The notes under the pieces: generated by a model | Told to the model about the DNA's origin: nothing | The model's database searches: none | Seen by the model: the letters and a program-made list of their open reading frames with translations, nothing else | Shown: positions 1,598 to 42,574 of the stretch, piece by piece | Layout of the letters: every line of letters begins with the position of its first letter | Numbering within the stretch: position 1 is the first letter of the stretch | Assembly (NCBI GenBank): GCA_017550625.1 | Contig: JAFZOL010000045.1 | Span: 1 to 64,000, forward strand | Source of the DNA: Clostridia bacterium | GTDB taxonomy: Bacteria > Bacillota > Clostridia > Oscillospirales > Acutalibacteraceae | Length of the DNA: 64,000 bases | Reading direction: 5' to 3' | Made by a program: the position numbers and the translations under genes

Positions 1598-3094
1598 TCA
1601 GCGGATGACGCCGTAAATATATGTGAGGATATAAATAACGAGGTGTATAATGCCGAGCAGCCCATCGAACAGCCCGCCGTCATGCGTTTCGCCGCAAAGC
1701 AGGCAGGCACCGTCGGAACCGGTCGGCTCATCCGGGGCCGCTTCGCCTGTTGCGGGAATCACGGCGCCCACGGCGAGCGTCTGCCCGCAAACCGTGCATA
1801 CCGTATCTCCGGTGTAGCCGTCCTCGGTCGCGGTCGCCTCTTTTGCGTTCACGATCGTCCCGGTATGCGCGCCGGTCGGCGCGAGAACCGTGTTTTCGCT
1901 TTGCGTTTTGCCGCAAACGGAGCAGACCTCATGCTTTTTGCCGGCTGCGCCGCAGGTGGGTTCGTCGTCGATCACCCAATTCCAAAGGTGTTTGCAGGTC
2001 AGCGTAGCATCGGCAAGCGCCGCCACCTGCTCGGCAGAAAGCGTCCCGCTGTAATCGTTTTCACCGTCGGTCAGCGTCTGGCCGTCCTTTACGGTGACAG
2101 TGGCGTTCGGGAGAAAACCGCTGAAGGTATAGCTGCTGTCCGGCGTGTCCGCGCCGAGGGTCACAACGGCGTCCTCCGCGCTCGGATAAACGCCGAACGT
2201 GTTGCCGGATATATTGACTGTGCCGCCGGTGACCGAGATCGGCCCGCGGGAAAACAGCCCCATGGTATTGCCCGTCGCGTTCACGGTGCCGCCGGAAATG
2301 CTGACGCCGGAGGCAGCCGAAATGCCCATGCTGCGGCCCGTTGCGGTCACGCTGCCTCCGGTGATCGAAACGCTGCCGGAAGAGGAATATAAGCCGTTCA
2401 TACCGACGGAGGTCACGGTGCCGCCGGAGATCAGAATATCGCCGGTGCTCATAAGCGCCATGGAGTTGGCCGATTGCACGTTGAGCTTGCCGCCGCTGAC
2501 GGTCACCGTTCCGTTGACGGTCATGGACGCGGTATCGGTCTCACCGCCGGCAATGATCAAATCCTTTGTATAAAGTCCGTCCGCGTGTACAACACCGCCA
2601 AAAACGGACAGCGTGCCGTTGCGGGTGTCGGCCATGAGCCCCGTGGTCGTGACGTTTCCGCCGAAAATCGCAACGTCTCCGCTCCCGGCGTAGATGCGGC
2701 TCGATAACCGCAGCGTCCCCGTGCCGTTCTCCTGCGCGAACAGGCGAAGAGAGCCGTTCTCCGAAATGAGATTGAAGGTGTTTTGATTGGTGATCGTCCA
2801 GCTCGCGCCGTCGGCAAGGATCAGGTTCGCAACGGCGTCAAACGTGTGGATGACACTGTCGCCGGTGTATTCTCCCTCGAGAACATACCAATTTGTTTCG
2901 CCCGCCGCGCCGATGAGTCCCGCGCCGGGCGTAAGCGCAACGGCTTCCACGGTCTGCGGTTCGCCGTTTTCGTCGATATAGCTCACGGTTTCCGCGTTGA
3001 CCGGGCGCGCGTCGTCGGCATAGGCTGCCAAACCCTGAACGGAAAGCAGCATGCACAGCGTTAACAAAACGGAAAGTGTTTTTTTCAGTTTCAT
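1598..3094 (-). CDS. Secreted repeat protein with C-terminal Cys/His-helix tail
   Basis: 498 aa from the ATG at 3094; the start at 3109 overlaps the GGGAGG ribosome site and is rejected. A signal peptide (MKLKKTLSVLLTLCM..., cleavage near AYA) is followed by a long region (about residues 70-330) of short repeats of the form I-SGG-V, the pattern of a right-handed beta-helix. Two Cys-x2-Cys-G repeats then follow (CSVCGKT, CTVCGQT, about residues 385-445), of a kind common in gut Firmicutes surface proteins. The end carries CLLCGETHDGG and a roughly 25-residue hydrophobic helix. That tail closely resembles the end of the subtilase at 21868. Function unknown; a surface adhesin or carbohydrate binder is a reasonable guess. 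Confidence 0.75.
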   Translation of the reverse strand: MKLKKTLSVLLTLCMLLSVQGLAAYADDARPVNAETVSYIDENGEPQTVEAVALTPGAGLIGAAGETNWYVLEGEYTGDSVIHTFDAVANLILADGASWTITNQNTFNLISENGSLRLFAQENGTGTLRLSSRIYAGSGDVAIFGGNVTTTGLMADTRNGTLSVFGGVVHADGLYTKDLIIAGGETDTASMTVNGTVTVSGGKLNVQSANSMALMSTGDILISGGTVTSVGMNGLYSSSGSVSITGGSVTATGRSMGISAASGVSISGGTVNATGNTMGLFSRGPISVTGGTVNISGNTFGVYPSAEDAVVTLGADTPDSSYTFSGFLPNATVTVKDGQTLTDGENDYSGTLSAEQVAALADATLTCKHLWNWVIDDEPTCGAAGKKHEVCSVCGKTQSENTVLAPTGAHTGTIVNAKEATATEDGYTGDTVCTVCGQTLAVGAVIPATGEAAPDEPTGSDGACLLCGETHDGGLFDGLLGIIHLVIYILTYIYGVIR

Positions 3095-3122
3095 AAATAA
3101 GCCTCCCATATTGAATCAATTC

Positions 3123-11756: not shown

Positions 11757-14700
11757 TCAAACGAGGGTCTCGAGCCCCACGGCGGCGCGCAGGATCTTGC
11801 GCGCGTCCCCGGCGGTCACGATGTCGTTTCTGTCCACGTCGGCGGCGAGGAAGGCCCTCGTGCCGGGCTCGTAGGTCTCCAGCTCCACGGCGCGCCTGAG
11901 CGCGAGGCGGGCGTCGGCCGCGGTGATCTTTTTGTCGTCGTCCACGTCGCCGGGCATGAAGTCCGGCAGAACGAGCTTCGGGATGCTCTCGGTCTTCGTT
12001 GCGCCGCACACGGTGCAGGTGTAGGTCATCACGCCTTCCGACGTCAGGGTCGGGGCCACGGTCTCTTCGCCCTCGTCCCAGACGTGCGTCACGGGATCGG
12101 CGGGCACGGTCACGCCGAACGCGGCGTAGGTTTCGGCGTTGCGTTTATCCTGCGCGTCGCGGATATATACGATATATCCCCGCGCTTCAAGGTTTTCAAT
12201 TAAGGTCTGCGTCGTCCAGCCGGACGCCGCGAGGAGCTCGTCGGGGGGCGTCGGGTCATCCGAAAAGCGGATCAGCCATTCGTATTGCCCGGCGTAGCGC
12301 CCGTTCGCGGGGTCGCTCGCCGCCGGGTCGTAAAGGCCGCCCGTCAGCGCCGCGGGGTCAAGCTCGATGCTGCCCTTCGTCCCGTGGCCGGTGGCGGTCA
12401 CGGTGAAGAGCTCCGCCTGCGTTTTTTCTTTCGCGAGCGACACGGGGATGCCGGTCACGCGGCAGGAGGCCGTCCCTTTGATCCCGTTGCCGTCGGTGAC
12501 CTCAAGGACGTAGTCGCCGCCGTAAGCAACGGGGACGGCGCCGGAGAGGACCGTCGCGCCCGCTTCGATCTCAAGCGGCTGCCCGTTCAGGGTAACGGCC
12601 GCGATCGCGGGCATCGGATCGCCGTCCGTCTCCTGCGTGGCGGCGGACCACTGGAGGACCATGTCGTCCCCGTCGAAGACGAGCAGCACGACCGGCGTCT
12701 TCGAGCCGCTGCGCGTCATGCGCACCACTTTCAGCGTCCAGCGGTCTTCATGCGGGGCGGGGTCGCTCACACGCACCAGATACCAGCCGTTGGCGTCGGC
12801 GGGATACGTGCCGTCTTTCAGCGGCGCGACCTCGTTTTGCAGGGAAGCGCCGTCGTCGGTGAAATAAAGGCACGTCACGGCGACCGTCGCGCCGTCGCCG
12901 CCGTCGGAGGCCTTGGCGGCCACGTCGAGATACGCGCTGTCGTTTTCGCCGTAGGGCACCTCGTCCGTCAGCGGCACGTCCGGTTCGCCGCCGGTCCCGC
13001 GCTTCATGAGCGTGACGTCGGCAGTGGGCAGGGCGTCGCCGTCCTCGGTCCCTGTCCCGAACCAGTCGACGTCCACGCGCCGCACCGCGCGGTGCCCCGC
13101 GTCGTCGAAGGCGTCGACCGTGAAGCCGCCGTTTTCGGTCACGGTGAGGTCGAGCGTCCAGAACGAGTCGTCGTGCTTCGTGATGGAATCGGGCTTTTTG
13201 CCGTCCAGCGTCACGGACGACAGGGCGTTGTTGTCGAGAATGAACGCCTGCAGCCGCACGGTCCCGCCGCTCTTGATCTCTCCCGCGTTAGGGAAGGAGC
13301 GGCTGAAATAGATGTGCGGGGCGTCTTCGTCCTCTTCGGGAACGGGCACGCCGCCCTCTTCGCTGAACGTTTCGATCAGGCGGTCGAACGCCGCGTATCC
13401 GCTCAGGCCCGCCGCGCCGGTCACGGTGACAGTCACCGTGTGCGAAAGGTTGTCGGGGTTCTCGCCGAAGGTCACGACGGCGTATTCGTTCTCTTCGTCG
13501 CCGCTGCCGCCCGAAGCGGAGATCTCAACGGGCTCGAAGCCCCCGAAATCGCTCTCCACGCGCGCCTTGCCGTCGAACACCAGGGCGATCGACTCGGCCT
13601 GGGTCGTGAACGTGAAGCTGCTGCCGGGCTTGCCCTTCGAGAGGTTGCCGAGATACGGCTCGGTGCCGTCGGCGCCCCACACGGGCGCCGCGCCGTCGAA
13701 CAGCCAGCCCTGCGCGTCCGCCGCAGCGGCGCCGTCCCAGAGCGAGCCGTCCGGGTTTATGAAGGTGAACAGTTCGTTGTCGTTGAAGATGTTGATGCCG
13801 TCGGACGGCGGCGTCACGGTGTAGGCGATATCGAAGAAGCTGTTCGTGTTCGCGTCGATCAGGCGGATGAAGCCGCTGCCCTCGCCGCGCGGCGAAAGCA
13901 CGAGCGTGCCGCCGCCCGCGCCGTTGTCGAAGCTGCCGTCGCGGAAGCTCAGAACGCCCATGTGCGCCTCATCCTGCCCCGAGAATTCCGAAACGAGGAT
14001 GCGCGGCGCGTTTTCGTCCGTCGTGTATCTCACCGCCACCGGGATGCGCACCGTGTTGCCCATAGGCACCGAGATCCTGTTCGGGGCGGTGAAGGCCGCC
14101 GCGTGCTCGATCTGCGCCCGGAAGAGGTTGTTGACGTCGTTATATTCGCCGTGCGTCCCTTCGATGAGCCCCGTGTCGGAAACGGCCGTCGTGTCGGCGG
14201 CGCTGAAGAGCTCCGCCTGCAGCGAAAGGGCGCCGGTCGCGGAGTCGTTGAAGCAGGCAGCGGGAACGGTGACGGTGCCGGTGATATGCTTGCCGCAGCC
14301 CGCCTCGATGGTGCCGAGGGCGAACACGCCGTCCTTTTCACCGTACCCGGCGGAGAGCAGACGCAGGTCCTCGGTCTCGAACGTGCTGCCGGTGAGATCG
14401 AGCGGCGCCCAGACCGTGCGCCCGTCCTCGTCGGCAAAGCCCGTATCATAGCTGAAGAGCACGAACGCGTCTTCGGCCGCCGCGGTGCCGTAGTTGCCCG
14501 CGATCAGGTCCACGTCGAGCACGGCGTTGCCGTTTTCGTCCACGTCTTTGAGCCTGATCTTCGCGTCGGTAACGCCGAGGTCGGGGCGGCTGCCGATGAC
14601 GAGCAGGGGCTCGGACACGGCGGAGAACGCCGCGCCCCCCTGCGGGACGTAGGCGTCGGATTCATACACGTGCAGCACGAGCTTCGTGCCCTCGGGCAGG

Positions 14701-17700
14701 TCGGTCGGGATGCTGAGGTTCCCGTTGAGCGCGACCTTCTGCCCCGAAATGACGTTTTCGGTCAGCGTCCATTCGCCGAGCAGGGAGACGCCTTCGTCAC
14801 TTTGGGCGTTGAGCTCGACCGTGATGGGCTGCGCCGCGCTGCCGCGGATGCCCACGTCGCCGGTGTTCATGAAGCTCAGCTTCGCGTAAGGCTCCGCCCC
14901 GGCTGTGAAGTCGTAGACCGGCATGTCGAGCGAGGCGTTTCCGATCTCCTGCCGGCCCACGCCGCAGGCGATCGCGTACACGCCCACGCCCGCGGGTTTC
15001 GAGGCGCTCTGCGGATAGGCCGAAACCGTCACGTCTTCGTCGGCGATCGGCACGACCGGATAATCCGGGTCGTCGTTTTCGCGCAGGTACCCCATGGCGC
15101 CCTCGGTGAGCACGAGCAGGGTGTCGGCGGTCTGGCCGAGCGCGATCTGCGGATTCATGAAGGTGAACGTGTCGAGGCTGCCGCCGTCGTAACCCTCAAG
15201 CAGGCCGAGAAACGCCTTTTCCGCGTCGCCGCGGGACCGGTTCTCACGGATGTTGTCTTCGTACACGCCGAGGTGGTTCATGGCAAGGATCGTGCCGCTG
15301 CCCCAGCTGCCGGTGTTCGGGTCGTATTTGGTCAGCCACAGGGCGTTGTCGCCCGTGTTCTCCACGGTCGCGGTGTACACGGCGGCGAGGTTGCCGTTGC
15401 CGTCAACGCCGATCGTGGCGTCCGACCTGCCCGTCGCGGCGTACGCTTCGGCCTCTTCGTCCGCGCCGGCCGTGTCCGCGCGGAAGAACGGGATCACGCT
15501 GCCGCTCTGCGCCTCTGCGATGCTCATGAGCGAATTTTCGCGGATCAGATAGGTCGCGCCGTTCATGTCGAACAGCAGAAAATGCTCGGGCGAGGCGGCC
15601 TGCAGGGTGAAGTCCTCGTCTTCGCCGGTCAGGGCGTCGCCGATCTTCGCGTAAAGGAACTGCAGGTGGTCGAAATACGGGTCGTCGCGGCGCGAAACGC
15701 GCATGCCGTCGCGGTACACGCCGTCGGAGAGGGTGTCGTTGTTGTCGAAATCATAGAGCGTGCGCAGGAGGATGGCCTTGCCGCCCTGATCCCACTTGAC
15801 CTTGCCGCCGGAGATCGTGAAGGTGCGAAGATACAGGCGCTTGACCGTGAGCAGGTTCGAAGCGGCGGCCGCGTCGTCGGTCCGGCTGCCGGTCTCATCC
15901 GTATACATCTCTTCGCCCGTGGTATACACGATATAATACCGGTCGCCGATCTGCGCGCTCTCGATGTTGTCGATATGCACGCCCTCGGCGAGGGCCACGG
16001 TGCCGACCGTGCGCCCGTCCTTCGAAACGCGGAGCTCCGACTGTCTGCCGTTGACCGTCCACGAGGCGCGCTGCAGGCCGATGCGGTACGAGGCGATCTC
16101 CGCGATGGCCTCTTCTTCGTCGTCAAGGCTGTAGCCCTGGTTCGCGAGATAGGCGCGGTACTGTTCCGTCTTCGCGGCGAGCTCGGCGTCGGTATAGGGC
16201 GCGGTGCCGACGTAAACGGCGGCGTCGCCCGCAAACCCGGGCATCGCCACGGCGCCGTCGGCGCTGCCGACCGTCACGGCGGGGGTAAAGCCGTCGCTGC
16301 CGGGCGTGAAGACGGCGGTCTTCACCACGGTGTTCTTCGCGGCCGCCGCCAGCGTGCCGAGCACGGTGTCTTCGTTATGCGCCGTCGGTTCGGCGTAGCT
16401 GACCCACACGGCCTTCACAGCGCCGTTGTCTTCGCACACGCTGAACGTTAGGTCGCCCGTGCCGTCGTCGCGCCCGTTCGAAAGGGTGTCGAGCGGGATG
16501 TAGGGGACGGCGGCGTCTTCGTCGGCGGGGTTGACAAGGCCGGGCTGCACGCCGGTCATCTTGAGGCGGCTCATCACGAGCATGGTGTTGTCGTTCGCGT
16601 GCCCGGCGTTTTCGCGCCCGATATGATAGATCACGTAGTTTTCGTTTCCTGCGGTCACGAGCCTGAAGTCGTAGCCCGTCTGCAGGCCGTCGGCAAGCTT
16701 CGCGGCGTCGGAGCTGCCCGAATATCCGGCGAGCTCAAAGGGCACAGCGGCGTCGTTCGCCTGATACGACTGCAGCGAGAAATCTTCGTCAGCGTCCTTC
16801 TGGGCGTACACGGTCTGCGTGCGCGAAACGTCGCCCGGGAGCGTGAGGCGCGCGTCGTAGACGCTGCCGTCGGCGCCGGTCATAGACAGGGTGCCGAAGC
16901 TGCCGCCGTATTTGTCGCCGAGTGCCGACCAGCCGTGGCTCCACTCTTCGGTCTCGCCGTCGTATTTGATCGTATATCCGATCAGGTCGAAGCTCTGCGA
17001 ATAGAACAGGAACACGGCCTTGGCCGCGAGGCTCAGCGTGAATTTGGCGCTGTTGAAGAAGAAATTGCCGCCTTTCGCCGGGAAGAAGGTCATCACGACC
17101 CCGGCGCTGAACTTCACGGTGAGCTCGAGCTTCATCAGCTCCACGCCGACGCCGCCCGAAACGCTCACGAAGAACTCGGGCTCCACCCGGATGCCGCTCC
17201 ATTTGATGTCGGAGCGCTGGTCCGTGACCGGCGCGAGATGCGAAAGCGTGGTGTTCTCGAGCGCCGAAATCTGCAAATAATAGGTCTTGCCGTCGAAGTC
17301 GTAGCCGTTCTTCATCAACAGCGTCGCGGTCACGGGCTTCGCGCCCTTTGATTTGAGAAAACCGCTGTTCGCGCCCGCGACGCGCTTGGTGCACGCCTCG
17401 TCCTCATACAGGTCGAGCGCCACCTTGCCGTTGAACTTGATGTTCACCGCTTTATAATTCAGCGGGAACACGTAGTATCTGCCCTTCGTGAGGGACATCG
17501 TCTTCTTTTCGGCGTCATCGCCGACGTACTGCGTGCCCTCGATCGTCTTGTTCTTATACTCGCCGCCGGTGGTGAGTTTCAGTGAAACGCCGATCTTGAC
17601 GGTGATGTAGAACAGCGGGCACACGGTGAAGCGGTGGGTGTACGTGAACTGGAAGAAGCCCATCGCGCCGACCGAGAACTGCTTGAACCGGAACTCGTTG

Positions 17701-20700
17701 TAAACGGGGTCGTATTTGAACAGGAACGCCCCGGTGAATATGATCACGGCGTTGAAGCCCTTCGAGGTGTATTTGCCCTTTTCGACCGCGTCGGAATAGC
17801 TGTCGTCCGAGAACATGAGGCCCGCGGGGCCGAAATAGATGTTCAGGCAGTTCGCGAATTCGGTCGCGTTGCCCTTGATCATCTGGCCCGGGCCCTTCCA
17901 GCCCTTGCCCTGCTTCCAGCCCGCGAGCGGGATCGAGAACGAGATCAGGTGCTCGAGGCCGTTCGACGAATAGCTGATGAAGTCGTGCGTGGTCTCGCCG
18001 AATTTCAGCTTCGGGATCTTCGTGTCGAGGTCGAGGTTGAACTCCGAGAAATCGCTGCCGCTGTCGGCCATGTCGAAGCCGCCGTCGGTCTCGGAATCCT
18101 CCGAGCCCATCTGCGAGAGATACGAGGCGTCGGGCGTCGTGCTGTTCGGGATGAGCGTGGAGCTCTCGGGGCGCGGGACCACGCCGTCCAGCGCGAGGGT
18201 CTCGGTGTCGACGGTCTGCTGCTGCACGCACAGCGCCACCGTGGAATCGCCCGCGAACGAGCCGAGATAGCCGTTGAGGTTTTCGCGGTCGGTCTCGCTC
18301 ATCACGAGTTTGCCGTTGTTCATCGAGGCCGTGGGCGCGAGCGGGATATCCTTGCCCGCCAAAGAGTTTTCGATATAGATCGGGTCGGGCGTTTCGTAGG
18401 GGTACATGAGATTGCCCCTGTACGCCGGTTCCCACTCGTATTTCTGTTTTCCGTCTACCGTCACGGGCTGAACGGGGCTCGTGTCGCCGCCCAGCGGCAC
18501 GTCCACGTACTGCACCGCCGTTGCCGCCGCCCCGTACATCACGTGCCCGTCGGCGGTGTAGGCGCCTGATTCATCCCTGCCGCTGAACACGTAACGGTAG
18601 CTCTGCTGCTGGTCGGTCAGCTCGGCGTAAACATCGGGGTCCGTCACGCTGGTCGTCAGGGCGGGCAGCACCTGCGCCCGCTGCCCCTCCTGCCCGGGCT
18701 CGGGCGTCAGGGCGCGGGGCGTCATGGTGTAAAAGATCTTCAGATACATCTGCCCGGGGTCGCCGTCCATGTTTTCGGCGTAGGTGAATATCGTTTCGGT
18801 GTAATCCGTGCCGGGCTCGAGGAACATCAGAAATTCGTCGCCGCTGCCGGCGCCGATCTCGAAATAGCCGGTGTCGGGGTTATACGCGCCGTCGATCCTG
18901 CCGTTCAGGTCGCCGTCCCAGTAAAGCCCCACCGAGTCGATCGCTGCCGTCATCACGGAGGTCGCGGTGAGAAAGCTCTTGTTATAGTAGCGGAAGGTCA
19001 GGTTCGCCTGCGCGAGGTCGGCGGGCTCGAGCATGATCTTGTCGTCGCCGGCGTACGAGCGCCCGTTATACAGGATGCAGTCGTCGTGGCTCCGGTTGAA
19101 ATTGATCCACTGCACGTTCTGCAGGCCGGTCTTTGTGAGCACCGTGCCGTCCAGAACGAAGGCGCCGCCGTCCTTGGTCACGCGCGTCTCGGTCACGGTC
19201 GTGCCGAAATGCGGGGCCGTTGCCGTGAACGGCGAACAGCCGCAGGTGACGTAGTCCTCGCCCGACGCCCAGAACAGGGCTTCGGCCTCGCTGACCTTCG
19301 TCACGTCGATGGACGAGAGCACGTTGCCGTCCGCGTCCTTCATGTGCGCCACCGAGGGCGCGAGGTCGATCTTCAGGTCCTGCTTTCTGGACATGACCAC
19401 GTTGATCACGTAATCGCCCGCAAGGTCGCTTTGCGACATCTCGCCCCACAAAAGCGTCACGACATAGTCGTCCGTGCCCGAAACGGCCTCGACCTTCGCG
19501 TTCACCACGCTGCCGTTTTTGCGCGTGAGATACACGGCGGCGGAGAGCTCCTCGCCCATATAGGGCGCGTAGCTGACGGTCTTGTTGAGCGAGACCTTCA
19601 GCTTTGTGCCGACGTAGAGATCGCCGGACCGGTCGACGCCGCCCTCGTTTTTCACGAGGGTGACCGTGGGCTTCATCGAGGCGTAAACGCCCGATTCCGT
19701 TGTCAGCACGGCGGCGCCGTCGGGGGCGGTGCGCACGTTCAGCCCGCCGCTCTCGCCGTCGTTGGCGGTATGGATCAGCAGATCGAACCCGCCCGTAAAC
19801 GTTCTGCGGGCAAGCGTTGCCCCGACGATCTCGCTGTACTGTTCCTTGGTGGACGTGTAATCGCCGTTCTGCGTCGTGCCGATCGTCAGCCCCGCCAGGG
19901 ACTCGGTGACGGGCCAGGCCGCGTCAAGCGTGCCCGAGCCGTTCCAGTGCAGGGTGTCGTTTTCAAACAAGCCGCCCTCTTCGACCCACGGCTCGCAGTC
20001 GACGTAGGCGTAATTATTTCCGTTCGGGCGCGTCACGGCTCCCCAGCCGTAGGTATAGGAGTCGATGTCAAACGTCGACATGTATTCCGCCCAGCCGGCC
20101 GAAAACTTATACTCGCCGCTGAAGCTTTTATAGAGCTTGGCCATGTCGGCGATCGTCAGCGTGCCCTTTTTGCTCCCGTCGCTCGAAATTTTATAGCCGT
20201 TGTCGGTCTTCGTCGCGTTGGGCCACGACGGGCCTGCGGCGATGACGTCGTAATCGTCCGTCCAGTAACTCGATTCATAATCATTGTAATCGTAGCGGGA
20301 GACGTACAGCCTGCCGTAGTGATAGGTCTGCAGCTGCAGGTCCCCGTCGAACCCGGCGATCGAGGCGGCGAGCGGCTCGCCGGTCTCCTTGGGCGTGCCG
20401 GTCACCGCGGCGGGGTCGATATCCACCGCGCTCGGGCCGCTGTCCGGGGTCTGTCCCGAAAGGTCGATCGCGTCGGGGTCCGCGAGCACGGTCGCGAGGT
20501 TATTCCCGTCGCCCGTGCCGGAGTTATAAAGCCGCACCGTGACCTCTGTCTCGCCGAGCGTGCCGATACCCGCGGCGTCGCCCTTGATGCCGATGAGGCG
20601 CAGGGTCATGTCTTTGCCGTCCGGGTCTTCTTTTCCGTCGTCGATGAGCGGGATCACGATCTTCTGCTCGGCGGCGTCGCCGTAAAACGACACCTCGCCG

Positions 20701-21821
20701 GTCACTTTTTCATAGTCTTTGCCGGCCTTCGCGGCGCCGTCGACGCTTTCATAGGTCACCGACACCATGCTCTGGTTGCCGCCGGTGCGCTTCACCGTCA
20801 CGTATGCCGCCCCGTCCGCGCGGTCCGCCGACAGCTCGGTTTCGGTCAGCGACACCGTGAACGGCTCGGGGGCGTCGTTGTCGGTCACGGCGAAGATCAG
20901 GGTGTTCGCCGTGTCGTAAAGGCTGCCGCCCTCGCAGTCCGTGATCATCAGAAGCCCCTGCCGGATGCATTCGGGCGCGTCGTCCTCCGGGGCGGTGATG
21001 CGGATGGATTTCATCCACTCGCCGTCCGCGAAGGTCAGATAGAGGTCGTAAGAGAGATAGGGGTCGTCCTTGTCCGGCTCCAGCGCGGTGAACCGCGTTT
21101 CGGGGTCGAGGTCGAGCCCTTCCGGCATCTCGGGCAGCGGCTTTTCTTCGGGCTTTTCATAGGGCACGCCCTTCGCGGACGCCGTGCAGTAAGCCGTGCC
21201 GCCGACCGTGTACACGCACCTGAAATCATAGTCGTCCAGATCCGCATTTGCCGCGGTGAAGGAGCTTTCCGTCGCGCCGTCGACGTTCCGCCAGCGGCCG
21301 TCGGACAGCACCTGCCACTGATACGCCCCGGCGCCGGCTGCCAGAGAAAGCGTCACGTCGTCGCCGTTTTCTTCGCGCAGGATCACCGCGTTCCCTTTTT
21401 CGGGATCGGGGTCCTTGCCCACGGGCTGATACTGCGCGATCGGCCGGGCGTTTTCCACCTCGATCAGGATGTCGTCGGTCGAAACGGCGGTCGCGTAGCC
21501 GTATGCGTCCTCGCCGACCGGCACGAGCATGGGCGAATAGCGCACCACGGCCGTGGCGCGGCCCAGCGTCCCGCCGAGGCGGTAGACGTTCACGGTCAGC
21601 GTGTCGCCGCCCTCTTCGAGCGCGGCTTCGCTGAGTTCAAACGCGAACGTGCCGTAGGGGAAGCGCGTCTCCCAGTCGTCCGTCACCGCCACGTCGCCCC
21701 GTTCGGTATGCAGGGTGTCGGGCTTCCGGGTTTCGGCGCGGGCGAACAGCCGCGGCTGGACGACGCCTGCCGTCATCAGCAGGCTCAGCGTCAAGGCAAG
21801 CAGGTTCTTGAATCGTTTCAT
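11757..21821 (-). CDS. Giant secreted dockerin protein (3354 aa)
   Basis: An uninterrupted frame of 10 kb. Residues 1-30 are a signal peptide. About 320-430 form a Calx-beta domain (TVSLTETELSADRADG, then VIPLIDDG). About 1350-1750 is a distinctive region of aromatic, hydrophobic beta strands (GAMGFFQFTYTHRF, FSAGVVMTFFPAKGG) that I do not recognise. About 2410-2520 looks like a CARDB domain (RPDLGVTDAKIRL). A Cys-repeat CTVCGAT lies near 3270, and residues 3287-3354 are a type I dockerin with two calcium loops (DVDDDKKITAADARLALRR and DVDRNDIVTAGDARKILRA). Dockerins bind cohesins on scaffoldins. The gene follows the subtilase by 46 bases and precedes the HAD gene. The role is probably structural or adhesive; no catalytic motif was seen. 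Confidence 0.82.
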   Translation of the reverse strand: MKRFKNLLALTLSLLMTAGVVQPRLFARAETRKPDTLHTERGDVAVTDDWETRFPYGTFAFELSEAALEEGGDTLTVNVYRLGGTLGRATAVVRYSPMLVPVGEDAYGYATAVSTDDILIEVENARPIAQYQPVGKDPDPEKGNAVILREENGDDVTLSLAAGAGAYQWQVLSDGRWRNVDGATESSFTAANADLDDYDFRCVYTVGGTAYCTASAKGVPYEKPEEKPLPEMPEGLDLDPETRFTALEPDKDDPYLSYDLYLTFADGEWMKSIRITAPEDDAPECIRQGLLMITDCEGGSLYDTANTLIFAVTDNDAPEPFTVSLTETELSADRADGAAYVTVKRTGGNQSMVSVTYESVDGAAKAGKDYEKVTGEVSFYGDAAEQKIVIPLIDDGKEDPDGKDMTLRLIGIKGDAAGIGTLGETEVTVRLYNSGTGDGNNLATVLADPDAIDLSGQTPDSGPSAVDIDPAAVTGTPKETGEPLAASIAGFDGDLQLQTYHYGRLYVSRYDYNDYESSYWTDDYDVIAAGPSWPNATKTDNGYKISSDGSKKGTLTIADMAKLYKSFSGEYKFSAGWAEYMSTFDIDSYTYGWGAVTRPNGNNYAYVDCEPWVEEGGLFENDTLHWNGSGTLDAAWPVTESLAGLTIGTTQNGDYTSTKEQYSEIVGATLARRTFTGGFDLLIHTANDGESGGLNVRTAPDGAAVLTTESGVYASMKPTVTLVKNEGGVDRSGDLYVGTKLKVSLNKTVSYAPYMGEELSAAVYLTRKNGSVVNAKVEAVSGTDDYVVTLLWGEMSQSDLAGDYVINVVMSRKQDLKIDLAPSVAHMKDADGNVLSSIDVTKVSEAEALFWASGEDYVTCGCSPFTATAPHFGTTVTETRVTKDGGAFVLDGTVLTKTGLQNVQWINFNRSHDDCILYNGRSYAGDDKIMLEPADLAQANLTFRYYNKSFLTATSVMTAAIDSVGLYWDGDLNGRIDGAYNPDTGYFEIGAGSGDEFLMFLEPGTDYTETIFTYAENMDGDPGQMYLKIFYTMTPRALTPEPGQEGQRAQVLPALTTSVTDPDVYAELTDQQQSYRYVFSGRDESGAYTADGHVMYGAAATAVQYVDVPLGGDTSPVQPVTVDGKQKYEWEPAYRGNLMYPYETPDPIYIENSLAGKDIPLAPTASMNNGKLVMSETDRENLNGYLGSFAGDSTVALCVQQQTVDTETLALDGVVPRPESSTLIPNSTTPDASYLSQMGSEDSETDGGFDMADSGSDFSEFNLDLDTKIPKLKFGETTHDFISYSSNGLEHLISFSIPLAGWKQGKGWKGPGQMIKGNATEFANCLNIYFGPAGLMFSDDSYSDAVEKGKYTSKGFNAVIIFTGAFLFKYDPVYNEFRFKQFSVGAMGFFQFTYTHRFTVCPLFYITVKIGVSLKLTTGGEYKNKTIEGTQYVGDDAEKKTMSLTKGRYYVFPLNYKAVNIKFNGKVALDLYEDEACTKRVAGANSGFLKSKGAKPVTATLLMKNGYDFDGKTYYLQISALENTTLSHLAPVTDQRSDIKWSGIRVEPEFFVSVSGGVGVELMKLELTVKFSAGVVMTFFPAKGGNFFFNSAKFTLSLAAKAVFLFYSQSFDLIGYTIKYDGETEEWSHGWSALGDKYGGSFGTLSMTGADGSVYDARLTLPGDVSRTQTVYAQKDADEDFSLQSYQANDAAVPFELAGYSGSSDAAKLADGLQTGYDFRLVTAGNENYVIYHIGRENAGHANDNTMLVMSRLKMTGVQPGLVNPADEDAAVPYIPLDTLSNGRDDGTGDLTFSVCEDNGAVKAVWVSYAEPTAHNEDTVLGTLAAAAKNTVVKTAVFTPGSDGFTPAVTVGSADGAVAMPGFAGDAAVYVGTAPYTDAELAAKTEQYRAYLANQGYSLDDEEEAIAEIASYRIGLQRASWTVNGRQSELRVSKDGRTVGTVALAEGVHIDNIESAQIGDRYYIVYTTGEEMYTDETGSRTDDAAAASNLLTVKRLYLRTFTISGGKVKWDQGGKAILLRTLYDFDNNDTLSDGVYRDGMRVSRRDDPYFDHLQFLYAKIGDALTGEDEDFTLQAASPEHFLLFDMNGATYLIRENSLMSIAEAQSGSVIPFFRADTAGADEEAEAYAATGRSDATIGVDGNGNLAAVYTATVENTGDNALWLTKYDPNTGSWGSGTILAMNHLGVYEDNIRENRSRGDAEKAFLGLLEGYDGGSLDTFTFMNPQIALGQTADTLLVLTEGAMGYLRENDDPDYPVVPIADEDVTVSAYPQSASKPAGVGVYAIACGVGRQEIGNASLDMPVYDFTAGAEPYAKLSFMNTGDVGIRGSAAQPITVELNAQSDEGVSLLGEWTLTENVISGQKVALNGNLSIPTDLPEGTKLVLHVYESDAYVPQGGAAFSAVSEPLLVIGSRPDLGVTDAKIRLKDVDENGNAVLDVDLIAGNYGTAAAEDAFVLFSYDTGFADEDGRTVWAPLDLTGSTFETEDLRLLSAGYGEKDGVFALGTIEAGCGKHITGTVTVPAACFNDSATGALSLQAELFSAADTTAVSDTGLIEGTHGEYNDVNNLFRAQIEHAAAFTAPNRISVPMGNTVRIPVAVRYTTDENAPRILVSEFSGQDEAHMGVLSFRDGSFDNGAGGGTLVLSPRGEGSGFIRLIDANTNSFFDIAYTVTPPSDGINIFNDNELFTFINPDGSLWDGAAAADAQGWLFDGAAPVWGADGTEPYLGNLSKGKPGSSFTFTTQAESIALVFDGKARVESDFGGFEPVEISASGGSGDEENEYAVVTFGENPDNLSHTVTVTVTGAAGLSGYAAFDRLIETFSEEGGVPVPEEDEDAPHIYFSRSFPNAGEIKSGGTVRLQAFILDNNALSSVTLDGKKPDSITKHDDSFWTLDLTVTENGGFTVDAFDDAGHRAVRRVDVDWFGTGTEDGDALPTADVTLMKRGTGGEPDVPLTDEVPYGENDSAYLDVAAKASDGGDGATVAVTCLYFTDDGASLQNEVAPLKDGTYPADANGWYLVRVSDPAPHEDRWTLKVVRMTRSGSKTPVVLLVFDGDDMVLQWSAATQETDGDPMPAIAAVTLNGQPLEIEAGATVLSGAVPVAYGGDYVLEVTDGNGIKGTASCRVTGIPVSLAKEKTQAELFTVTATGHGTKGSIELDPAALTGGLYDPAASDPANGRYAGQYEWLIRFSDDPTPPDELLAASGWTTQTLIENLEARGYIVYIRDAQDKRNAETYAAFGVTVPADPVTHVWDEGEETVAPTLTSEGVMTYTCTVCGATKTESIPKLVLPDFMPGDVDDDKKITAADARLALRRAVELETYEPGTRAFLAADVDRNDIVTAGDARKILRAAVGLETLV

Positions 21822-21867: not shown

Positions 21868-23199
21868 TCAGCGGTTCCGGCCGATCAGGCCGAACCAGTA
21901 AATCACTCTGTGCAGGATCGTAACGACGCCGCCGAACACGCCGCCGTGGGTCCGCCCGCAGAGCGGACAGGGCTCCGGTCGGGGCAGGGGAGGGGCGGGG
22001 GCCTCTTCCCACCCGGCGTACAGCGTCACGTTTCCCACCGAGCCCGCCGGGATCCGGCCGGCCGCCTCGGTGCAGTTTTCGTCGAGGTACCAGCCGGTAA
22101 AGGCGAAGCCCTCTCTCGCGATCGCGCCTTCATCCGGCAGAACGGCGAGGCCGCCCTTGCCGATCAGGTACGTTGCGTCATACCCCGCGCCCGAAAGCAC
22201 GCCGCCGTTCGTTTGGTAATCGATCGTCTGCGGCGATTTGAGAGCCGCCGTGAACGCGGCGATATTGACCGCCCCGTAGCCGTAAACGTCGTCTCTGCCG
22301 GGCTCGCCGAGGTCCGCTGCGCTCTGCCGCAGCAGGGCGCGGAACCCCTCGGTGCCGATCGCGCGGTCCGTCTGTTTGGCCATCACCGCCATCGCGGCGA
22401 CCACGGGGGCGGCGAACGAGCTGCCCGAATCGGTGCGGTAGCCGTCGTCCGTGCGCCAGTCGGGGCCGAACATGTCCTGCCCCGGGGCCGCCACGTAAAC
22501 GGTCGCGTTGTGCTGCGAGGCGGCGGAGGCCGTTCCGTCCTGCGTCAGCCACCCAACGCCCGTCACGCAGTCGAACGCCGCGGGGTAATAAAGCGCCGTG
22601 CCGCCGCCGTTGCCGACCGAGGCGATCAGCAAAATCCCTGCGTCCGCTGCCTGCCGGAACACGGGCTCCAGTTCCTGCAGCGACTGCTTCGTGCCGCCGA
22701 TGCTCATGTTCAGCACGTCGGCGTCCTCTGCGATGGCGTATTCCACCGCCCGCCGGATCGTCTCCTTCGCCCCGCTGCCGGCGTTCGCGCTGCCGCCGAG
22801 CGAAGAAAAGCAGCGCAGCATCAGCACCGACGCGTCCGGCACGAGGCCGTCCGTGCCGAGGCCGTTGCCCGCCGTCGCGGCAAGAATGCCGCACACGAGC
22901 GTGCCGTGCCCCGCGTCGTCGCCGTAGGCCGACGGGTCGGCGTATGGCTCGCTGCCCAGAAAGTTATATCCCGTGATGTCGGCGTTTACAAGATCCTCGT
23001 GCGCGGCGTTCACGCCGGAATCGATCAGCGCGATCTTCACGCCCGCGCCCGAAAGCCCCGCGTCCCGCGCCGCCGCGACGCCGAGGGACTCGAAATACCA
23101 CGGCTCCTCCGCCGCGCGGGCGTCGGCCGGCCGCCAGAAACAGAGCGCGGCGGCCGCGCATACGACGGCGACCGTTTTTTGCAGCAGCTTTGACGGCAT
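21868..23199 (-). CDS. Secreted subtilisin-like protease (S8) with Cys/His-helix tail
   Basis: 443 aa. A signal peptide (cleavage near ARAA, residue 30) is followed by a subtilase domain with the triad Asp60 (ALIDSGV), His98 (GHGTLVCG) and Ser261 (GSSFAAP), and oxyanion Asn197. The prodomain is very short or absent. Residues 310-390 hold a Listeria-Bacteroides (InlB B/Flg_new) repeat (FTGWYLDENC, VTLYAGW). The last 33 residues are CPLCGRTHGG plus a hydrophobic helix and a basic end, almost the same tail as the 498-aa protein at 1598. It is first in an operon with the giant dockerin protein, so it may process that protein; that is inference. Confidence 0.88.
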   Translation of the reverse strand: MPSKLLQKTVAVVCAAAALCFWRPADARAAEEPWYFESLGVAAARDAGLSGAGVKIALIDSGVNAAHEDLVNADITGYNFLGSEPYADPSAYGDDAGHGTLVCGILAATAGNGLGTDGLVPDASVLMLRCFSSLGGSANAGSGAKETIRRAVEYAIAEDADVLNMSIGGTKQSLQELEPVFRQAADAGILLIASVGNGGGTALYYPAAFDCVTGVGWLTQDGTASAASQHNATVYVAAPGQDMFGPDWRTDDGYRTDSGSSFAAPVVAAMAVMAKQTDRAIGTEGFRALLRQSAADLGEPGRDDVYGYGAVNIAAFTAALKSPQTIDYQTNGGVLSGAGYDATYLIGKGGLAVLPDEGAIAREGFAFTGWYLDENCTEAAGRIPAGSVGNVTLYAGWEEAPAPPLPRPEPCPLCGRTHGGVFGGVVTILHRVIYWFGLIGRNR

Positions 23200-35260: not shown

Positions 35261-35542
35261 ATGCTGAAAAAACGGCTTTGCGTCCTTTTGTGCCTCGTGC
35301 GCGCGACCGAGACCCCCGCGAGGACCGCCGTCCCGCCGGAGGAGCCCACCGAACCGGCGACGGAGCCCGTCACCGAGCCCCCGACCGAGCCCGTGACGGA
35401 GCCTTCGACGGAGCCGCAGGGCTGCACGCACATCTGCCATTCGACGAACCCGTTCTACCGCATCGTGTGGCGGGTGCTGAACACGGTCTATAAGCTCTTC
35501 CGGATCAACAAGACCTGTTCCTGCGGCGCCGAACACTGGTGA
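35261..35542 (+). CDS. Mini secreted protein: signal, TEP repeat, Cys-rich tail
   Basis: 93 aa. It opens with a short signal-like stretch (MLKKRLCVLLCLV) that lacks the usual Ala-x-Ala site. A 30-residue Thr-Glu-Pro repeat follows, then a 39-residue tail: CTHICHS, an aromatic amphipathic helix (FYRIVWRVLNTVYKLFRI) and a second Cys pair CSCGAEHW at the very end. There is no room for a functional domain, so it is either a free-standing tail or a gene with an internal deletion that joined the two ends. It has its own good promoter and GGAGGGGG ribosome site, so it is probably expressed. The tail is a distant relative of those at 1598 and 21868. Confidence 0.6.
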   Translation: MLKKRLCVLLCLVRATETPARTAVPPEEPTEPATEPVTEPPTEPVTEPSTEPQGCTHICHSTNPFYRIVWRVLNTVYKLFRINKTCSCGAEHW

Positions 35543-35737: not shown

Positions 35738-35835
35738 CAAAAAAAGCAAAACTTTCGGCAGATTACGATCGATCCGATCGAATTGTTATGCGGAGATCGC
35801 GATATCCGAGACGTAACGGAGAGGAGGAGCCGTCC

Positions 35836-36399
35836 TTGGAACAGGGAAATGATATTCTGCGCGTATGGCGAAAAGATCCGGACAGGGGCCTGCGTCTTTT
35901 GATCGACGCTTATGCCGGACCGGTATGGAAAATCGTGCGGCAAAAGCTTGCGGGCGCTGCCTGTGAAGCGGATATGGAAGAAACCGTAAACGATATCTTC
36001 CTTGAGATCGCTGAAAAAGCGGGGCGAGTCGACGAAGCAAAAGGAGCGCTGACCGCTTTTGTGCTGACGCTGGCTCGTCGCCGCGCGGTGGACGCTTATC
36101 GCAGGATCGCGCGCAGACAGGAATTCCCCGCCGAGGAGCCCCGTCCGGACGAGCCCGCGCAGGACAGCCCCGAAGAGCTTTTGCTTCAAAAAGAGGAACG
36201 CCGCAGGATGCTGTTGCTCCTTATGGAGCTGGGCGAGCCGGAGACGACGATCCTGTTCCGCCGCTATTATTACGGCGAAAGCTACGCTGAGATCGGCAAG
36301 GTCGTTCATCTCAGCGAAAACGCAGTGAACAAGCGCTGTTTGAAGGCGCTGCAAACGCTGCGCGAACAAATGAAAGGAGACGTATCCCATGACGAATAA
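35836..36399 (+). CDS. ECF-type RNA polymerase sigma factor
   Basis: 187 aa from a TTG at 35836. This start is chosen because GGAGAGGAGG lies 8 bases upstream, whereas the in-frame ATG at 35788 has no ribosome site. Region 2 (LIDAYAGPVWKIVRQKLAG, then AFVLTLARRRAVDAYRR) and region 4 (SYAEIGKVVHLSENAVNKRCLKAL, a helix-turn-helix) are both present, joined by an acidic linker. Such factors redirect transcription in response to envelope signals. The next gene overlaps its end by 11 bases and encodes a membrane protein, the usual position of an anti-sigma partner. Confidence 0.87.
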   Translation: MEQGNDILRVWRKDPDRGLRLLIDAYAGPVWKIVRQKLAGAACEADMEETVNDIFLEIAEKAGRVDEAKGALTAFVLTLARRRAVDAYRRIARRQEFPAEEPRPDEPAQDSPEELLLQKEERRRMLLLLMELGEPETTILFRRYYYGESYAEIGKVVHLSENAVNKRCLKALQTLREQMKGDVSHDE

Positions 36400-37859
36400 C
36401 ACATTCGAGTCGCTGTTTGCCTCGCTGGATGAAACAGAGCTTCAAACGCTTGTCAATGCGGGTGTGAACGTAAACGTGCCGGCGACGCGCAGCGAAAAAA
36501 AACGGTTGTATCATCTGACGAAAAAGAACACGGAACCCGTGCGGCGGTTCCCGAAGGGCCGCACCGTAAAAACAGTTTTATTTGCGGCGGCTTTACTGAC
36601 CGCATTCGTTCTCGTCGCAGGGGCGGTGGAACACTTTATATTACCCGCGACGATCCCGGAGCATATCGAAGGCTTTACGCTGCAGGCGGTAGATCCCGTT
36701 GTGATCGAGCAGGACGGTAAATTTGTCCCCGTGACGGCAACGTCGGACGGCTGCCGGATCACGCTGGAAGCCATCGTGAAAGGCGACGTGCTGAACAGGG
36801 ATCTGTTCACCGGCAAAGAGGTAAAAAATGAAAAGACGTACGCCGTGGTGACGATCAGGCCCGACGACGCCGCGCTGTATGAGGAATGGCAGACCGGCAA
36901 AAAAGGCGAACCGGACAGCATCTGGATGGTGGAAGGCTACGCGCCGCTGCCTATGTCCGGCTACGGCTGCAACTGGTTTATCGACGGCGTGGTGTATCAT
37001 CTGGCGGACGTAACGGACGCCGCTCTGTTTGCCGACCGCGAACTGTATCTCGCCGTCAGCGTCAACACGCCGGACTGGTCCGTGCTGCGTATGGACGAAC
37101 AGGGAAAATTCTATTATCTTGACCGCACCGTCGGGATGAGAGCCATTCTTCCGCTGCCGTTGGATACAAATAAAGCGGACCGCGCAAAAGCGGACCGCTA
37201 CGCGTCGGAGCACGGTTTTATTACCGAGCCCGATTACAGCTGGTATGACGGGCAAAACGCTTTGGACGACGCGTTCATTGCCTCCGGCGTGGATCTGACG
37301 CCTTATATCGGCGATAACGAATGGCGCGGTTCTTCTCCGCTGCAGTTCGGCGTGGCGGAGCATGCCCGGGAATGGCTTGCATTGTCGAAGGATCGCCCCG
37401 CCGACGGCGTGATCCCCGCCTCGTTCCTTTATGTATGATTACGCGCTTGAAAACAATGCGTCTCCCGCACAGAGCGAGCTGCCGGAAAACGCGGGGGCGC
37501 ACGCTTTTGAAAACGGCGACCAATGGTATTACGTCGGGCGCGACAGCTTTCTGCTCTACCCGGCGGACGGAACGGCTGCAAGACTCGTCGTTGTAAAACC
37601 CGGCGGCATCGTGATCGACGTGGAAGCGGATTTCAACGCGCTTGTAAACCGCCTGCTGGCTGAAAAAGCCGGTCACGCCCCGGGGGCCTATGCCGCGGAA
37701 TTGTATTTGCTGGGCGGATACAAGTTCAACCGCTTTGACCGGTATACGGAGGAAATGTACGATTCTGACGTGTATGATTACAGAGACGCGGGGGACGCGC
37801 GTTACGAAATCATCGGCGAATATTGGTCCTGCAACGGTACGGTGCAGGTCATCCTGTAA
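36389..37859 (+). pseudogene. Membrane-anchored anti-sigma-type protein, split by a 4-bp duplication
   Basis: First part 36389-37438 (349 aa): a cytosolic N-terminus of about 58 residues, one membrane helix (TVLFAAALLTAFVLVAGAV, about 58-78) and a large outer domain, the layout of a sigma-linked sensor; it overlaps the sigma gene by 11 bases. Second part 37431-37859 (142 aa) overlaps the first by 8 bases, has no ribosome site and no signal peptide. Bases 37430-37437 read TATGTATG; removing one TATG joins the frames seamlessly as ...ASFLYDYALENN..., giving one protein of about 489 residues. I therefore read it as one gene broken by a tandem duplication. Translational coupling of two real genes is the alternative. 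Confidence 0.65.
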
Positions 37860-42116: not shown

Positions 42117-42542
42117 ATGAAGCGATCCGCCCTGAAGCGCCTTGTCTGCGTCCTGCTCGCGTGCGCCCTGCCGGTCCCGTGCGTCGCCCTCGCCTTCGCC
42201 GAAGAAGAGGCCGACGGGTGAAGGATCCCCACGATCCGGATCCGCGGCAAGACCGCGTAGCTCTATAAAAACGCCGACTCGCCCGACCGGCAGATCGACG
42301 CCTCGTCCGGGGCGTTCCCGGACGACACCTGTTACCTCAAATACTGCCCGCACGGCGAGTGGTACGGCGAGTTCTGCCGGCTGCTCAACTACATCATCGA
42401 AAAGGGACCCGCCGAAAACGCCGGCGCCGCCGTGACGAGACTTGTGAAAACGGCGCGCTCGCTCATCGAGACGCTTATTGCCCGCCTGCGCGAAATGATC
42501 GCCCACATCAAAGGGGAAGACAGATGTTTTTCTCTTTGGTAA
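42117..42542 (+). pseudogene. Secreted protein gene broken by two nonsense codons
   Basis: The ATG at 42117 has GGAGG 9 bases upstream and opens a signal peptide (LVCVLLACALPVPCVALAFA). TGA at 42219-42221 and TAG at 42258-42260 interrupt a frame that then stays open to 42542. Reading across them gives IPTIRIRGKTA-LYKNAD, similar to the opening of secreted alpha/beta-hydrolase-like proteins of Clostridia, then TCYLKYCPHGEWYGEFCRLLNYII and a long amphipathic helix. Each stop is one substitution from Trp or Gln. The enzymatic core is missing too, so the locus has both deletion and nonsense damage. The promoter is intact. Confidence 0.65.
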
Positions 42543-42574
42543 AATAAAAACTAAAAAGAAAGGACAACAATGCA

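Follow-up and report, generated by a model that had tools for sequence, protein, structure and literature searches.

Two alternative C-terminal Cys/His–helix tails on exported proteins of uncultured Clostridia, probable localisation tags

Two short C-terminal ends, here called tail A and tail B, close many otherwise unrelated exported proteins in a genus of uncultured Clostridia, and they replace each other within that genus. Both join conserved cysteine and histidine residues to an amphipathic helix. We consider it quite probable that they are C-terminal localisation tags, and the arrangement appears to be a new means of positioning proteins on the cell surface. Tags of this kind show how entire surface proteomes are placed. 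The present ones are frequent, lack a Pfam or NCBIfam model as searched, and occur in uncultured, largely rumen, Clostridia. Tags that replace each other between sister lineages constitute a natural experiment, which makes a search for the partner gene directly doable.

Results and discussion

Two kinds of tail in one 64-kb window

The starting point was a stretch of 64,000 nucleotides (the window), in which we located the following features.

1598..3109, minus strand: exported Cthe_2159-like protein, host of tail A (503 residues, or 498 counting from the second Met)
1598..1705, minus strand: tail A of the Cthe_2159-like protein, stop codon included
21868..23199, minus strand: exported subtilase, host of tail A (S8 domain and one List_Bact repeat; 443 residues)
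21868..21969, minus strand: tail A of the subtilase, stop codon included
35261..35542, plus strand: 93-residue ORF made up of a short hydrophobic start, a Pro/Thr/Glu linker and tail B, with no other part; a putative gene or remnant
35423..35542, plus strand: tail B of the 93-residue ORF, stop codon included

Tail A spans about 35 residues and has the layout C-x2-C-G-x2-H, followed by an aromatic, amphipathic helix in which a His is conserved. It ends the subtilase as CPLCGRTHGGVFGGVVTILHRVIYWFGLIGRNR and the Cthe_2159-like protein as CLLCGETHDGGLFDGLLGIIHLVIYILTYIYGVIR. An earlier note on this DNA had placed the tails correctly, both main ones lying on the minus strand. It had also read CxLCGxTHxGG on both proteins; they do have a string in common, but its exact form includes a one-residue gap and is CxLCGxTH(x)GG. 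A degenerate DNA pattern for the knuckle matched two places in the window, namely the two A tails, and none in 100 shuffles.

Tail B has the layout C-x-[HC]-x-C-H, helix, C-x-C-G-x2-H-[WYF], so that its CxCGxxH stands C-terminal of the helix, whereas in tail A the knuckle precedes it. The 93-residue protein had been regarded as a distant member of the same tail. Its Cys/His–helix end is indeed analogous, but it belongs to a separate class. A decayed gene at 42117 had been named as a further bearer, a proposal that we dropped: it was absent from the eight best window matches of either the A or the B profile with filters off. That stretch (42117-42550, plus strand) has a signal-peptide start, in-frame stops and a Cys-rich stretch ahead of a helix, and shows no kinship to either profile.

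Two neighbouring regions of the window were also read. On the same strand as the subtilase and 46 bases downstream of it lies a gene for a 3354-residue protein (11757-21821, minus strand), for which Pfam gives Calx-beta alone (1e-5) and at whose end a dockerin-like repeat pair was seen by eye. Just downstream of the tail-B mini-ORF, 35788-37438 (plus strand) encodes a sigma-70 region 2/4 factor and a 349-residue protein that lacks a Pfam match and has a single hydrophobic segment.

The tails close many unrelated exported proteins

A search of the window's own genome with the 38-residue subtilase tail alone returned 15 places (4.9e-24 for the query itself, 2.3e-9 for the runner-up). Inspection showed 14 to be C-terminal tails, two of them representing one mirrored gene, and one to be a chance match (L014). 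The 36-row A profile gave 24 matches in the same genome at E<=1e-4, one of which was the mirrored copy. This gene, coding for an M6 peptidase with tail A, lies about 10.45 kb from both ends of the 144,220-base contig C59 (at about 10449 and 133772; L004 and L005), probably as a palindromic assembly artefact. A scan of genome contigs with I[LAI]YFFAHL yielded 51 loci, in MAGs of uncultured Clostridia; titles in this set named goat omasum, goat rumen or rabbit as sources, and many referred to RUG isolates, which we take to be of rumen origin. The match lay 0-2 residues from the stop in 50 of the 51 loci. A single genome held up to 35 A matches or up to 18 B matches. Four chance matches (L014, L035, L037 and L038) were kept out of the alignments, as were L034 and L036, which had no pattern match; a later profile does match L034.

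The earlier note's claim of one and the same end on unrelated secreted proteins was borne out, with many, mostly exported, hosts in both classes. With repeats of one place counted, 161 of 162 A matches stood at most 11 residues from the stop and all 98 B matches at most 10. One locus, L105, carries tail A with 51 more residues ahead of the stop. Most tails that we read belong to proteins hundreds to thousands of residues long. Among 18 distinct A hosts read in the own genome, which include the pattern-found L124 (+) with its divergent helix, a signal peptide was evident by eye in 11; five were cut by a contig edge and two were ambiguous (L127, L130). Their domains comprise S8 (on four hosts), M6, Cleaved_Adhesin, Cthe_2159, DUF6273, Flg_new and Big repeats, while several have no recognised domain. 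The B hosts and one A host of other genomes carry C1 papain, LRR_5, lectin, 5'-nucleotidase and other domains. CxxCG repeats occur near the end of some hosts.

By a crude, purpose-written rule applied only to frames closed at the 5' end, a signal-peptide-like start was assigned to 50 of 61 A hosts and 27 of 35 B hosts, as against 74 of 376 neighbouring ORFs. The A rows in this count include one chance ORF, L066 (-), and another, L197 (+), had been removed by hand beforehand. The rule or the choice of start lost some plain signal peptides (e.g., L096, L111, L184), and other hosts have no visible signal. The tails were neither confined to close homologues of one protein nor, as a set, carried by proteins lacking signal peptides.

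Conserved residues and predicted structure

The candidate ligand columns were tallied from an HMM search over the collected loci that required no pattern. Among 101 distinct A tails, the first Cys was present in 101, the second position held Cys in 90 and Asp in 11, and the His and the helix His were each present in 100. Among 59 distinct B tails, Cys-2 was found in 52 of 52 filled rows and Cys-6 and His-7 in 57 of 57; column 4 (57 filled) held His in 37, Cys in 19 and Asp in one, and the post-helix residues Cys-33, Cys-35, Gly-36 and His-39 were each present in 59 of 59. Apart from the Cys-to-Asp exchange in A, the tails have a conserved set of at least four candidate Cys/His ligands, as a zinc-binding module would. 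These tallies are partly seed-dependent, since many rows sit in the seed alignments and the profile scores ligandless tails lower; 23 of the 36 A seeds and at least 24 of the 26 B seeds were read off with patterns that hold Cys/His. In 13 own-genome A seeds and the 51 contig loci, which were selected without regard to ligands, the first Cys and both His were kept almost always. That the second Cys of A gives way to Asp only, and that His and Cys exchange in B column 4, supports a small folded module. The Asp variant, C-x2-D-x2-D-H, marks an A subgroup (L076, L085, L087, L090, L096, L100, L101, L113 and L114).

The helices of both classes are amphipathic with alpha periodicity. Their moment exceeded 95% of their own shuffles in 90 of 94 A and 52 of 58 B tails, and the mean moment was 0.48 for A and 0.57 for B, compared with 0.16 in 69 signal-peptide segments. 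On the octanol scale the tail helices are hydrophobic enough to permit a transmembrane state, though they are strongly amphipathic. Tail A often has a basic residue near its end (Arg or Lys in column 34 in 61 of 79 filled rows), whereas B ends in CxCGxxH[WYF]. In a B subgroup (L167, L168, L171, L172, L184, L185 and L196) a short extension, often ending in Phe or Phe-Gly, runs past the last His-Tyr/Phe. Pro, Asp and Glu abound in the 25 residues ahead of the tail, where aromatics are scarce.

AlphaFold2 modelled the A tail of L067 (41 rows) with a mean pLDDT of 85.6, predicting a bridge of residue 7 with residue 14 around the CxxCG turn and a helix at 19-38. The B tail, modelled from one sequence, gave a poor model (pLDDT 60.8) with a helix at 20-35. 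To probe a possible common descent of A and B, their helices were aligned with hhalign, which gave E 6.5e-4 but a probability of 27.6% over 22 columns.

No significant Pfam or NCBIfam match to the tails was obtained for the three window proteins or for 36 A and 26 B tails scanned singly. Weak Pfam matches of the 36 A tails include several zinc knuckles, the best of them (0.019) below significance. A PDB search by sequence gave near-threshold matches for A to the influenza M2 transmembrane helix (0.0089) and a dioxygenase CxxCG knuckle (0.05), which we take as likeness of composition, and no match for B; Foldseek matched the 41-residue A model to no PDB chain. Viral contigs held no relative of A or B, and plasmids held none of the one A and one B tail tested. 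A phage origin was tried and rejected, with no PHROGs match for one A and one B tail. Literature searches with tail strings and descriptive queries, whose scope excluded most subscription papers and all preprints, returned no account of these tails.

The two tails replace each other within the genus

Across 26 genomes of the genus, 16 had at least five A and at most three B tails, and the other 10 had at most one A and at least three B; none lacked both. The A and B counts were opposed (Spearman -0.79, uncorrected for relatedness). An rpoB tree covering 21 of the 26 genomes parts A from B by a single change with weak support (59/35); bootstraps required one to two changes and shuffles a mean of 6.6. 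Replacement was seen on a single protein as well. L205, which ends in A in an A genome, and L201, which ends in B in a B genome, are reciprocal best matches among the collected hosts. They are 38% identical over 1376 aligned residues and have the same domains (C1 papain, Lectin_like and LRR_5). Eight further reciprocal-best A/B pairs are partial or repeat-based. These observations show that A and B replace each other within the genus.

Among 33 genomes outside the genus, matches were found only in G813, which belongs to another genus of the same family and has six B and no A tails, and in G038, with one A-like match. Since G813 has B without A, B is the likelier older form. A search of 398 genomes of the phylum found A in the own genome alone. 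Among 394 genomes of the order, A was found in the own genome and G038, with a weak helix-only match in G560, and B in the own genome only. Sampling in the phylum and order searches was thin, with at most 19 first-look candidates scored per genome, and copies elsewhere may have been missed.

What the tails may do

The earlier note had proposed a sorting, anchoring or processing signal. A localisation-type tag agrees with our results; a signal of the form motif, transmembrane segment and basic end fits them less well than a folded anchor or docking element does. We favour, tentatively and with a chance somewhat below even, a folded, retained and metal-dependent helix element that anchors or docks its host. 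A small folded module retained on the protein is favoured by the ligand pattern, by the amphipathic nature of the helix and, in B, by ligands on either side of it. After export, the Cys/His residues would bind a metal, most likely zinc, and so present the helix. Its hydrophobic face might rest against the membrane from outside or against an envelope receptor particular to the lineage; an enzyme or adhesin would thus be held at the cell, and the tag need not be cleaved. In one lineage, most tagged proteins would have exchanged tag B for tag A. Metal binding, cleavage state and location are here inferred.

The opposed counts speak for some specific partner, and self-anchoring by itself fails to explain why a whole genome uses a single dialect. 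One such partner might be a membrane peptidase or transferase that recognises the Cys/His motif and helix, removes the tail and anchors the host, much as myxosortase acts on MYXO-CTERM. The basic end of many A tails, together with the hydrophobicity, keeps a processing signal in play: tail A does combine a motif with a helix, its last residue is often basic, and systems of this kind usually show themselves as a short tag carried by many exported proteins (PMC11980579). The earlier note had expected an enzyme family to track the tail, and we found none with sortase and exosortase profiles or in a survey of gene neighbourhoods. Sortase (PF04203) was present in 20 of 20 genomes, tailed or tailless, and exosortase (PF09721) in none of 28, with a control match in M. 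jannaschii. Around the tailed genes, 564 ORFs from 68 sources were called with a simple ORF caller and clustered. Among the 25 largest clusters, which we examined, the largest was a host family (8 loci) and no other family reached more than 4 of 68 loci; by eye, none of them resembled a recurrent processing enzyme. Among the recurring neighbours, for instance, a lipoprotein-like gene stood next to the members of one orthologous host group (4 loci), and transporter-like and Hsp20-like genes recurred at 3 loci each. Moreover, B keeps Cys and His past its helix, and both helices are amphipathic. We judge processing unlikely.

Slightly less likely still, in our estimate, is a docking module for a scaffold or receptor protein, comparable to dockerin and its cohesin, in which A and B would be two specificities and the partner would have changed to match. 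The opposed counts across the 26 genomes, the single, weakly supported change on the rpoB tree and the small metal-site-like module behind a flexible linker all suit it. Yet no partner was found, the own genome, though rich in A, still has two B tails, and the hydrophobicity of the tail helix appears to exceed that of the usual docking helices. A C-terminal domain that is neutral and specific to the lineage, multiplied by duplication and recombination and devoid of a localisation role, would account for the near confinement to one genus and one near genus and for the CxxCG repeats near the end of some hosts; we hold it to be very improbable, because the ligands are conserved and other helix positions are variable, which together with the strict terminal position and the opposed counts points to selection. 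The least credible of the readings, with hardly any chance, is that proteolysis frees the helix as a bioactive or membrane-active peptide. The helices are amphipathic and aromatic, and two tail-only ORFs (that of the window, 35261-35542, and L126, with 101 residues) could be its plain form; against this, most tails stand on long proteins, and no export or immunity cluster was seen around these two ORFs.

The preferred reading, a retained metal-dependent helix element, can be carried further. It is possible, if doubtful, that a metal-locked amphipathic helix at the C-terminus, outside the tripartite sorting signals and uncleaved, keeps many exported proteins at the cell and does so in two interchangeable dialects, and that one clade rewrote its dialect on the majority of its tagged proteins, which would imply a receptor that changed with it.

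Comparison with known systems

Zinc knuckles of the CxxCG type (Pfam zinc ribbons and treble clefs) have in common with the tails the CxxCG turn and the bridge predicted round it; the tails, however, have one knuckle only and a further ligand-like residue inside the helix, and their best zinc match is the weak one given above. Dockerins are small C-terminal metal-site modules that follow a linker. The tails are likewise small, C-terminal, metal-site-like and preceded by a linker, and two specificities are possible, but they measure about 35 residues and have no calcium-loop repeats. Neither hosts nor tails gave a dockerin match at the cut-offs used, in agreement with the earlier note. That note had also set the tails apart from LPXTG signals, rightly so: both are C-terminal ends of exported proteins and the last residue is basic in some, but the motif is absent from the aligned tails and the presence of sortase is independent of them.

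With PEP-CTERM and exosortase, which PMC11980579 also names, the tails have in common that a homologous C-terminal tag closes exported proteins that otherwise differ; they are distinct in motif and helix type, and in the absence of exosortase from the genomes searched. MYXO-CTERM (mBio 2025, PMC11980579) has a transmembrane helix, an Arg-rich end and a CPBP enzyme. Like the present tails it is a short C-terminal end that contains an invariant Cys and recurs on many exported proteins of one genome, and the first Cys is invariant here as in MYXO-CTERM-like signals (101 of 101 A tails, 52 of 52 filled rows of B). The helix of our tails is amphipathic, however, though it may be hydrophobic enough to span a membrane, further Cys/His residues are conserved, B, unlike many A tails, has no basic end, and neither sortase nor exosortase tracks them. 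The tails fail, or do not clearly show, the defining features of PEP-CTERM and MYXO-CTERM, and we file them under no known class.
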